Assembly (NCBI RefSeq): GCF_016899955.1
Contig: NZ_JACJJL010000016.1
Coordinates: 1-64,000, forward strand
DNA: 64,000 nt
From: Marseilla massiliensis
Lineage (GTDB): Bacteria; Bacteroidota; Bacteroidia; Bacteroidales; Bacteroidaceae
Reading direction: 5' to 3'
Shown here piece by piece: positions 25,598 to 57,371 of the stretch (the first letter of the stretch is position 1; every line of letters starts with the position of its first letter). The notes under the pieces are model-generated. The model saw only the letters and a program-made list of their open reading frames with translations, made no database searches and was not told where the DNA came from. Both the position numbers and the translations under genes were made by a program.

Positions 25598-25766
25598 AGC
25601 ATTTTTTTGTAAAAGCACACAAATTGCACCGCCATTAATGCTCAACTACGCTTCAGAGCATATTTTAACACTTGATATCAAGCTGATTATCAATCACTTA
25701 TAAAAATGTTACAAAAGAGGCATAAAAAAAGTACCAAAAAAAAGAACAACCTATCAAAAAAATATA

Positions 25767-25825: not shown

Positions 25826-26014
25826 ATGAAAAAATTGGTATTTATGTTCGTAGCTGTTGCAGCTATTTCTTTCGCATCTTGCGGTAACAAGACAAACCAG
25901 GCTGCTCCCGTTGATTCTGACACAGTAGCAACCGTAGACACCGCAGCTATCGACACAACCGTTACTGACAGCGCTGCTGCTCCTGCTGCTGTTGATAGCA
26001 CTGTTGCTGAGTAA
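25826..26014 (+). CDS. small Asp/Thr/Ala/Val-rich lipoprotein
   Basis: The gene encodes 62 residues. A signal peptide (MKKLVFMFVAVAAISFASC) has a lipobox ending at Cys19, so the mature part is only 44 residues, low in complexity and acidic: it is built from Asp, Thr, Ala, Val, Ser and Pro (for example TDSAAAPAAVDSTVAE). No family is recognised. The start at 25826 is preferred over ATGs upstream because those would put basic residues ahead of the signal peptide and overlap the promoter. The codon use (GCT, GTT) differs from the GC-rich neighbours, as in highly expressed genes. It may be a small abundant envelope lipoprotein, Lpp-like in role; that is speculation. Confidence 0.8.
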   Translation: MKKLVFMFVAVAAISFASCGNKTNQAAPVDSDTVATVDTAAIDTTVTDSAAAPAAVDSTVAE

Positions 26015-26044: not shown

Positions 26045-26072
26045 ACCGCCGGACTTAGTCCGACGGTTTTTT
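26045..26072 (+). terminator. intrinsic terminator of the small lipoprotein gene
   Basis: An 11-bp imperfect stem (26045-26055 with 26057-26067 region, CCGCCGGAC against GTCCGACGG) is followed by TTTTTT. Confidence 0.8.
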
Positions 26073-26467
26073 GTTTTGCCCCTGCCGATGTGCGAACCCA
26101 ACGACACATACACATAAGGCATGCCTGGCTTTGTTACGCAACAGTATGGATAACAATGGTGTTAGCGGCAAAACAAGGACAAGAAAAAGCCCTTCAAAAC
26201 ATTGCAAAAAGCCGGAAACGATTGCAAGAAGGCTGGAACAATGGCTCAACAGCTACAATCAATAGCAGTTGGAGAACCAAGACGCCGTAGTGTAAGCCCG
26301 AAACTTTAGGTATTATGTAAATGAAGCTATAGCATGACATTAATTGAGCTATAGCATGACATTAATTGGGCTGTAGCAGTATATGAACGAAGTTAAACTA
26401 CTATATTAATGGAAATGGAGTAATATATAAACGGTGCTATACTACATACGGGCTGTAGCTGGAAATG
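26073..26467. other. 395-bp convergent gap
   Basis: This gap holds an AT-rich 22-bp repeat array (26304-26457). The open frame at 26071-26265 shows no family resemblance and lacks a promoter; I do not call it. Confidence 0.55.
26304..26457. repeat. AT-rich 22-bp repeat array H (7 units)
   Basis: Units start at 26304, 26326, 26348, 26370, 26392, 26414 and 26436. The second and third are identical except for the last base and begin with the palindrome GCTATAGC; the other five are degenerate but keep TA-rich sequence and the exact 22-bp phase. No sequence match to the GC-rich family beyond period and a GC start. The period argues for a related origin or constraint. Confidence 0.75.
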
Positions 26468-26511
26468 AAAAAGGCGGCTCTGCCAGCAACAGAATGCCCG
26501 ACAGAGTCGCC
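26468..26511 (-). terminator. intrinsic terminator after galE
   Basis: A 10-bp stem with one G-U pair (26473-26482 with 26502-26511, 19-nt loop) is followed on the minus strand by a T-run (26468-26472). Confidence 0.75.
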
Positions 26512-26536
26512 GTATGCGTAATAATGCGATGTTGAA

Positions 26537-27574
26537 TTACTGTATTCCCTCCTCACGAAGTTTCTTCTGCCAGTTCCATGCCGACCTCAATGTGTCCTCA
26601 AGGCTTGTTTCTGCCTTCCATCCAAGCACTTTGTTTGCCTTTTCCGGATTGGCCCAAACCTTCTCAATGTCGCCGGCGCGCCTCGGTGCATACGCCCAAT
26701 TCAACTTTACGCCCGTAGCCTTTTCGAACGCATCGATGATTTGCTTCGTGCTGACGCCGTGGCCTGTGCCCACGTTAAACACCTCGAGCTTGTCGCTGTC
26801 AGTGTCAAGCACACGCTCCATGGCCTTGACATGAGCCTTTGCCAGGTCGACCACATAGATATAATCGCGTATGCAAGTGCCGTCCGGAGTGTCGTAATCA
26901 TTGCCGAACACCTTCAACTGCTCACGTATTCCGATGGCCGTCTGAGTTACATAAGGTATCAAGTTCATTGGAACTCCGTTGGGCATCTCACCGATGATTG
27001 ACGACGGATGCGAACCGATGGGGTTGAAATAACGCAGCAGTATAGCCTTGATGTCAGCACCGCTGTTTATATAATCGCGTATGATTTCCTCGTTTATTTG
27101 CTTTGTATTGCCGTAAGGGCTCTCGGCCGGCTTTATCGGGGCATCCTCAGTAACGGGGAGGTTCTCGGGGTCGGGCTGTCCGTATACCGTGCAACTCGAT
27201 GAAAAGATGATTCCCTTCACCCCATGCTTTGGCATGAGCTCAAGCAGATTGAGCAGGCTGACAATATTGTTACGATAATACAAAAGCGGCTTTTCCACAC
27301 TCTCACCAACAGCCTTGCTTGCGGCAAAATGTATTATACCTTCGATGTCGGGGTATTTGGCAAAGACCTTGTCCATTGCGTCCATGTCACGGCAGTCCAC
27401 TTGTTCGAAAGCCGGGCGCACGCCGGTAATTTTCTCAATACCGTCAATTACACTCGCCTGCGAATTTGACAGATTGTCAACGATGACCACCTTGTAACCC
27501 GCATTTTGCAATTCAACTGTGGTATGTGAACCGATAAAGCCAGTACCACCAGTAACCAAAATTGTCTGTTTCAT
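26537..27574 (-). CDS. galE: UDP-glucose 4-epimerase
   Basis: The gene encodes a 345-residue extended SDR interconverting UDP-glucose and UDP-galactose. It has the NAD motif GGTGFIGS (about residues 8-15), the catalytic SSSCTVYG serine/threonine region and YGNTK (YxxxK), and the family signature GDYDTPDGTCIRDYI (here NDYDTPDGTCIRDYIYV). The length is normal. It forms a one-gene unit with its own promoter and terminator, and could serve both galactose released by the beta-galactosidase and surface glycan synthesis. Confidence 0.95.
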   Translation of the reverse strand: MKQTILVTGGTGFIGSHTTVELQNAGYKVVIVDNLSNSQASVIDGIEKITGVRPAFEQVDCRDMDAMDKVFAKYPDIEGIIHFAASKAVGESVEKPLLYYRNNIVSLLNLLELMPKHGVKGIIFSSSCTVYGQPDPENLPVTEDAPIKPAESPYGNTKQINEEIIRDYINSGADIKAILLRYFNPIGSHPSSIIGEMPNGVPMNLIPYVTQTAIGIREQLKVFGNDYDTPDGTCIRDYIYVVDLAKAHVKAMERVLDTDSDKLEVFNVGTGHGVSTKQIIDAFEKATGVKLNWAYAPRRAGDIEKVWANPEKANKVLGWKAETSLEDTLRSAWNWQKKLREEGIQ

Positions 27575-35778: not shown

Positions 35779-35910
35779 TCAATTACAATTAAGATGGCCC
35801 ATGCCCACTGCCGACGGCATTTCCGTGCGGAGCGCATGGGCTGCTGCATTTTATCAATATATTTCGCCAAATATGGCCTGGCGAGCCAACTGCCTGTGGG
35901 CAAGCGTGTT

Positions 35911-36020
35911 GCGCAACGGCGCATACGGCCGCGCCAAACGGCCCGTCCGGCAGTGCCAAACAGGCCCCGCCACCATGCCAAATGGCCCGTATGACAGAGC
36001 CGTGCGGCCCATGCCGCATG
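35911..36020. repeat. 22-bp dyad repeat array D (5 units)
   Basis: Units start at 35911, 35933, 35955, 35977 and 35999, in a gap between the small membrane gene and the convergent pseudouridine synthase. Cores include AACGGCCCGT, AACAGGCCCC and AATGGCCCGT, with left arms GCCAAAC or GCGCAAC. Confidence 0.8.
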
Positions 36021-43689: not shown

Positions 43690-44115
43690 CTTTTAATGCT
43701 TTTTTGCCTGCAATATTGTAAAAAACAGGGCGCCGACCCGCCCGGCACTGCCGCAGGCGCTACGCAATGGGCGGCACGGGGTGACGCCACAGCACGTCAA
43801 CAGGCCACCCCGCCCTGCTGCCTGAAGCATGCCGCCACAACCCGCTGACCTGCAGGACGTTGAGAAACGGGCCGTATGGCAATGCAGAACGGGCCGTATG
43901 GCAATGCAAAACGGGCCATGCGGCAATGCAAAACGGCCCGAATGACAGGATGACTCACCGGCTGCCATTCCGTGACGGGCGGCGCGGCATGCCTTGCCAC
44001 AAGCCTTCAGCATCAACGGCAGCCCTGCCGAAGCAAGTCAACGGCAACACAAAGCCTCAGCGTCGGATGCAAACGAAAAACAAACGATGGGCTTGGCCAA
44101 TCTGCAAAATAGCAT
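43690..44115. other. 426-bp divergent gap
   Basis: This GC-rich gap holds repeat array E (43862-43949) and no gene I can support; long open frames here read through the repeats. Confidence 0.6.
43862..43949. repeat. 22-bp dyad repeat array E (4 units)
   Basis: Units start at 43862, 43884, 43906 and 43928. The first two are nearly identical (AACGGGCCGTATGGCAAT); the last carries the core in the opposite orientation (CGGCCCG). This is the cleanest array of the family. Confidence 0.85.
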
Positions 44116-57148: not shown

Positions 57149-57283
57149 GCCATTTTTTGCGACATTTCCACCATGCGGAACGATTATTTTCCGCACCGGC
57201 CCCTGTGCCGGCTCGTTACCGGCACACGCAATGCAGACCACAGCACCGCTACCCGCCGGCAACGGCCGATGCAAGGAGAGGTC

Positions 57284-57371
57284 GCAAAACGGCCCATATC
57301 GCACTGCAATACGGGCCGTTTCGCATCATAAAATGCGCCGTTTCGCTAAGCAAAACGGCGCACGCTCATAA
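57284..57371. repeat. 22-bp dyad repeat array G (4 units)
   Basis: Units start at 57284, 57306, 57328 and 57350. The second contains the fullest dyad of the family (GCAATACGGGCCGTTTCGC). The third and fourth have GCGCC in place of GGSCC. Confidence 0.8.

Follow-up and report, generated by a model that had tools for sequence, protein, structure and literature searches.

The window analyzed here, a 64-kb stretch of DNA (64,000 nucleotides; G000:C36:1-64000), belongs to a genome of 4.13 Mb in 128 contigs. Between positions 26014 and 26537, a convergent gap of 522 bp lies 3' of both flanking genes, a small lipoprotein-like gene and galE, and carries an AT-rich tandem array. The features considered were as follows.

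25826-26014, plus strand: small lipoprotein-like gene, 62 amino acids from an inner ATG (start at 25706 in the ORF list)
26045-26067, no strand: terminator-like hairpin 3' of the lipoprotein-like gene, from the terminator scan
26304-26435, no strand: AT-rich array of six in-phase 22-bp units, consensus GCTATAGCATTATATTAATGGA, GC content 30%
26326-26369, no strand: twin units 2 and 3 (starting at 26326 and 26348), 21/22 matches, differing in the last base
26436-26457, no strand: block 7, out of phase, leave-one-out score -4.4
26452-26473, no strand: partial copy of the AT-rich unit, out of phase (GCTGTAGC...), profile score 7.7
About 26473-26511, minus strand: galE terminator candidate with a long loop, read by eye
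26537-27574, minus strand: galE-type NAD-dependent epimerase, convergent to the lipoprotein-like gene (Pfam Epimerase, 5.3e-54)
43866-43936, plus strand: GC-rich 22-bp family, comparison example

The array starts 290 bp past the stop codon of the lipoprotein-like gene and ends 102 bp from that of galE. The lipoprotein label is a putative one taken from the appearance of the N-terminus, and the gene had no Pfam match at an E value of ≤0.001. An antisense ORF is present with which the gap would be classed as tandem, but the gap is convergent. The original prediction placed the array between two terminators; the hairpin on the lipoprotein side was returned by the scan, whereas the galE-side candidate was missing from the scan list.

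A 22-bp tandem array starting at 26304, as predicted, was confirmed. Tandem Repeats Finder (TRF) reported positions 26325 to 26378 with a period of 22, and the best lag in the gap (26080-26536) was 22, with 44 of 60 matches, compared with no more than 34 over all lags from 8 to 60 in 500 dinucleotide shuffles. The seven blocks originally drawn had a mean pairwise match of 11.4/22 versus 6.2 in shuffles (reached in 0 of 1,000), and 11.1/22 once one twin unit was removed. All seven had been described as contiguous and in phase. This held for units 1 to 6, which had leave-one-out scores of +6.3 to +18.7 at offset 0 and negative scores at adjacent offsets, and failed for block 7. The two neighbors said to be alike except for the last base were indeed so, and we read these twins as a recent local duplication. 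The predicted opening, GCTATAGC, was found exactly in two of the seven blocks and nearly in two more, and ATTAAT was found in three of the seven. The GC content of the array was 30%, versus 47% in the remainder of the gap, and the array falls in the class that we define as at least three in-phase 22-bp units in an intergenic gap. Its unit showed no dyad symmetry (p 0.6 to 0.85), and the 11-bp harmonic of A/T content was not dominant in the array (0.13 of the power, the largest share being 0.30 at 22/7 bp).

The same genome carries a GC-rich family with the same period, located in the window at 1982-2073, 35910-35967, 43843-43954, and 57279-57357 and also genome-wide. At ≤3 mismatches, the GC pattern occurred at 200 forward and 205 reverse places in this genome, some counted on both strands since the unit is nearly palindromic, and its backward control occurred at none. 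Among 100 other genomes of the family, 11 had the pattern at a single place, which is near chance (backward control, once in about 6). We gathered 272 GC units from the sampled sequence by likeness to the consensus (≤4 mismatches), and their base frequencies were symmetric about two centers 11 bp apart (AACGG-S-CCGTT and TGC-N-GCA type). The identity of the units was 0.646 between arrays versus 0.658 within them (180 pairs), a difference narrowed by the consensus-based collection; judged from these sequences, the units appear alike across arrays, as if held to one consensus. The profile of the 272 units scored on the AT-rich array no better than on shuffles (p=0.52), confirming the prediction that the array differs in sequence from this family. 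The two are alike in period and in placement in gaps; they differ in sequence, and of the two only the GC-rich family has dyad symmetry. Two further 22-bp arrays were seen in this genome, one of the AATGATGTTTAAACCAAAGCAT type that is not GC family (L069 2566-2670; similarity to GC arrays, ≤0.35) and one of the AAAACATGGCCTATTG type that is weakly GC-like (L068 2223-2303; similarity, ≤0.51). The GC dialect also occurs in the near relative L159, with a similarity of 0.80 to the array at 57279.

The original prediction had staked itself in advance on a second copy of the AT-rich unit elsewhere in the genome, and on this point it fell. A blastn search with 26290-26470 returned the array itself and five matches, all with E values of 0.65 or worse, and a degenerate two-unit pattern at ≤3 mismatches found the array twice and two scattered places with 3 mismatches each. 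In 398 genomes of the same genus, blastn of 26080-26470, with up to two candidates scored per genome, gave short matches in 12, including the genome itself; on the same scoring, the best match to another genome (E 2.6e-5 over 27 bp) lay outside the array. Two of the 11 matches to other genomes touched the array, with E values of 0.0012 over 40 bp (G275) and 0.009 (G072). The two-unit pattern at ≤2 mismatches occurred in the 398 genomes at 12 places in 11 others (14 in 12 when the genome itself is counted), versus 3 places for the control. Additionally, the nearest profile neighbor of the AT-rich array among 84 other arrays was at chance level (p 0.93). Kinship of the AT-rich unit with the dialect of another species was therefore rejected, as blastn, pattern, and profile yielded nothing beyond a two-unit array in G271. 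That array (G271:C55:15105-15156) consists of two adjoining 22-bp units of the GCTATAGCCCCCAATCATCCGA type and has the GCTATAGC octamer in common with the AT-rich array.

A genome-wide peak of tandem repeats at 22 bp had also been predicted, and this peak was present. An array was called where a 44-base window matched itself at ≥29 bases at a given lag; overlaps with repeats of period 6 to 10 were removed, and a crude coding mask (ORFs of ≥90 codons) excluded any array of which it covered more than half. In the sample of the genome itself, the masked count was 8 arrays at lag 22, including the AT-rich array, versus at most 1 at the other lags from 15 to 30, and the unmasked count was 27 versus at most 1. 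The mask removed 19 of these 27 arrays, including the GC arrays at 1982 and 43843, because GC-rich arrays tend to sit under long chance ORFs. Over the same lags, 17 genomes of the genus gave 31 arrays at lag 22 versus 3 at the best other lag, the 80 named loci gave 25 versus 6, and about 0.36 Mb from other genera of the family, in 20 stretches of which two were short, gave 4 versus 0. About 0.36 Mb from other families of the order, in 20 stretches from 11 genomes, gave 1 array at lag 22 versus 2 at the best other lag; about 6.5 would be expected at the density of the genus, and a count of 1 or fewer has a probability of 0.012. Lags 44 and 66 echoed the peak. The distribution was patchy: arrays were found in 7 of the 17 genus samples (4 of 4 sampled at ≥100 kb and 3 of 13 at 20 to 40 kb), 13 of the 31 genus arrays came from a single genome, G016, sampled at 500 kb, and 19 of the 80 named loci carried a 22-bp array. 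The suggestion that spacing is kept and sequence is not was thus supported as a property of the group by the lag-22 peak in the genome and in its genus. The 80 named loci also had 17 arrays at lag 21, an apparent rival peak that was discarded because 11 of them overlapped repeats of period 6 to 10, leaving 6 versus 25 at lag 22. Heptamer repeats (e.g., AGTTTACAGTTTAC and CATAACTCATAACT) generate lags of 14, 21, 28, and 35 in L185, L195, L200, L217, and other named loci.

Among the matches listed for the galE protein, the best 80 named relatives were Prevotella or Prevotellaceae records with few exceptions, with a top identity of 94%, and we accordingly regard the genome as Prevotella-like. The lipoprotein and mtaB-like genes were absent from the fetched flanks of these 80 galE loci, 46 of which had the full 10 kb on both sides, so the array gap is not comparable there. 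As controls for this comparison, galE was recovered in all 80 loci, and the lipoprotein and mtaB-like genes were both recovered in the window. Four of the 22 convergent gaps of ≥100 bp downstream of galE carried 22-bp arrays (L192, L197, L213, and L234), all of them strong and each different in sequence from the AT-rich array. Close to the lipoprotein gene of relatives, 9-bp arrays of the TCTAGA type were seen (L040 1434-1500 and L042 943-1014). A preference of the arrays for gene ends was rejected: divergent gaps held 9 of 60 arrays versus 19 to 27% of gap bases, and the avoidance was not firm. The first sets contributed 3 of 35 (two more genus arrays lacked a gene on one flank), and the named loci contributed 6 of 25, with 4 of their 29 arrays unplaced.

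By column-permutation tests, 50 of 85 arrays showed dyad symmetry at p<0.05, comprising 5 of 9 in the genome itself, 42 of 71 in the genus, and 3 of 5 in other genera. Over the 85 arrays, A/T content had excess power at 11 bp (z 6.2) and also at 5.5 and 2.2 bp. Compensatory change pooled over the dyad arrays was absent (z -2.1 and -2.6), although selecting the arrays by their symmetry may have lowered the pooled z. In the 272 GC-family units, the covariation z per pair was mostly near or below zero, the positive exceptions being pairs 24-32 (z 5.8) and 7-27 (z 2.7). As far as the sequences speak to it, such uncompensated changes in the arms would favor symmetric protein sites over hairpins; neutral decay would look identical.

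The sequences of the arrays behaved as dialects of individual genomes. The G026 palindromic pattern occurred at 55 places in G026 and at none in G017 or in our genome, while the G017 pattern occurred at 21 places in G017, at 1 in G026 (with 3 mismatches), and at none in our genome. The G016 motif was found at 148 forward and 141 reverse positions in G016, many of them the same place, and at 0 in our genome. Among the 84 arrays other than the AT-rich one, the profile similarity was 0.54 within genomes versus 0.31 between them, and similarities above 0.6 were reached by 51% of 237 within-genome pairs versus 1.0% of 3,249 between-genome pairs. Unlike arrays nevertheless coexist in some genomes, with mean similarities of 0.26 in G017 and 0.36 in G026. 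In G026, three back-to-back lag-22 arrays were seen in one 526-bp gap (L132 17632-17930); the sequence of the middle array departs from that of its two neighbors, which appear to be mutual reverse complements. The close relatives L189 (659-753) and L191 (631-756) carry orthologous arrays in otherwise nearly identical sequence, with a difference of exactly one 22-bp unit between them; the core seems flipped in part of their units with the phase kept. A replication polarity of the G016 motif was considered and dropped: one orientation seemed to prevail among the places listed, but counts in 25 segments of 20 kb showed both orientations chromosome-wide.

Our leading explanation, which we hold at somewhat short of an even chance as a whole and at less for this array by itself, is that the family has a mostly intergenic class of 22-bp arrays with a binding-lattice role and that the AT-rich array is an orphan of this class, amplified locally. 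The array would have grown by local duplication of whole 22-bp units, and this is the best-shown growth step because of the twin units here and the one-unit difference between L189 and L191; some constraint would then hold the step at 22 bp. The 22-bp arrays of the family are probably protein-binding lattices. The class would keep a 22-bp lattice, in which two-fold axes often recur at a distance of 11 bp (roughly a turn of the helix), with its sequence rewritten in each species. The most likely reason, we infer, is that the arrays serve for cooperative binding by DNA-binding proteins of two-fold symmetry that stack along the same side of the helix. Each genome may have a dominant sequence read by its own protein, which in this genome would be the GC-rich AACGGSCCGTT... 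type. The AT-rich array could then be the remnant of an earlier sequence, serve as the site of a second protein, or be a recently formed array that is unread; a relic or an unread local amplification seems to us more likely than an array with its own reader. The argument for a lattice rests on the other arrays because the AT-rich array has neither dyad symmetry nor a dominant 11-bp harmonic.

The strongest competitor, to which we assign roughly a one-in-three chance, is an ordinary functionless minisatellite in which a chance 22-bp duplication slipped, with the period being a coincidence or a mutational habit of the family (duplications of two helical turns). The 95% identity of the twin units, the absent dyad, and the failure to find a second copy all agree with this explanation, and the exact one-unit difference between L189 and L191 is a slippage-like change. 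However, coincidence leaves the period-22 peak in several genomes and genera unexplained, and a mutational habit would by itself account neither for genome-wide families with a single consensus nor for the dyads seen in 50 of 85 arrays.

It is improbable that the AT-rich array arose from the GC-rich family by divergence or by drift toward AT. The idea was prompted by the end block ATACGGGCTGTA at 26446-26457, which resembles the GC core by eye, but this block sits in the out-of-phase part, and with the GC profile scoring at shuffle level on the array, drift was rejected on score and phase.

Still less probable is that the array is the interior of a MITE-like element moved by a transposase in trans. 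Porphyromonas gingivalis, which is a member of the Bacteroidales, the same order as the host of the array, has the minisatellite/MITE BrickBuilt. BrickBuilt comprises 19 elements with a 23-nt repeat, a leader, a tail, and terminal inverted repeats (PMC4596501), and it resembles the arrays here in being intergenic, in its near period, and in its imperfect short tandem units at many chromosomal sites. An imperfect inverted pair (26128-26140 and 26515-26527; 85% over 13, 374 nt apart) brackets the AT-rich array and is a candidate for terminal inverted repeats. Our genome differs from this system in its 22-bp period and in its GC-rich units, which number in the hundreds and share no outer flanks; the AT-rich array is single copy by blastn and by the degenerate pattern. 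The flanks of the GC arrays, compared from 45 to 210 bp out from each end, did not share a leader or tail; among 162 flanks there were 13 matches (E≤1e-3; 23 to 65 bp long), three of them between neighboring arrays. An RNA-level element, with tandem hairpins in the 3' untranslated region of the lipoprotein gene or galE, is as improbable as the MITE: the array does lie in a convergent gap downstream of both genes, but the gap had no Rfam match (one chance-level match fell at 27014-27079, inside galE), and RNA hairpins were rejected on this result together with the absence of pooled covariation and, apart from the two pairs mentioned, of covariation in the GC-family units.

Returning to the orphan of a 22-bp class, the AT-rich array is real but small, and it supports the view that in this group the period is kept and the sequence is not. 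For the alternative in the original prediction, that each array class may pair with its own binding protein, the AT-rich array gave no sign of a reader, and it lacks the palindromic feature seen in many other arrays. A bolder reading, which we consider less likely than not, extends the view to a family-wide, two-fold symmetric intergenic lattice of 22 bp, whose reader would be a symmetric DNA-binding protein, or a family of such proteins, that evolves fast, with the AT-rich array as a relic or a second dialect in a GC-dominated genome. In this reading the lattice would be a bacterial counterpart of satellite DNA, with conserved geometry and a sequence in species dialects. If the lattice reading is true, a common animal-associated lineage has a chromosome-wide protein-DNA system of fixed geometry and drifting sequence. 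The AT-rich array alone is a small matter, and its value lies in showing the period without the sequence inside one genome. Searches of the open-licence literature turned up no publication describing 22-bp arrays for Prevotella or the family around it, which is a weak negative (compare PMC4596501, PMC5771137, and PMC4060949).

Two other known systems invite comparison with the arrays. The iterons of plasmid origins are directly repeated protein-binding units of about 22 bp; the arrays here differ from them in being chromosomal and in occupying many gaps. REP/BIME elements are extragenic palindromic units in arrays, with species-specific sequence, that are paired with a Y1 RAYT (TnpA_REP) transposase; the 22-bp arrays are likewise extragenic and species specific, mostly with palindromic units, and to our knowledge REP elements do not keep to a constant lattice of 22 bp. 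Mobilization by a RAYT was rejected, since the Y1 transposase domain PF01797 was absent from our genome, G026, and G017. In G016, we observed three PF01797 places (610881, 624154, and 669038), one of which has an internal stop.
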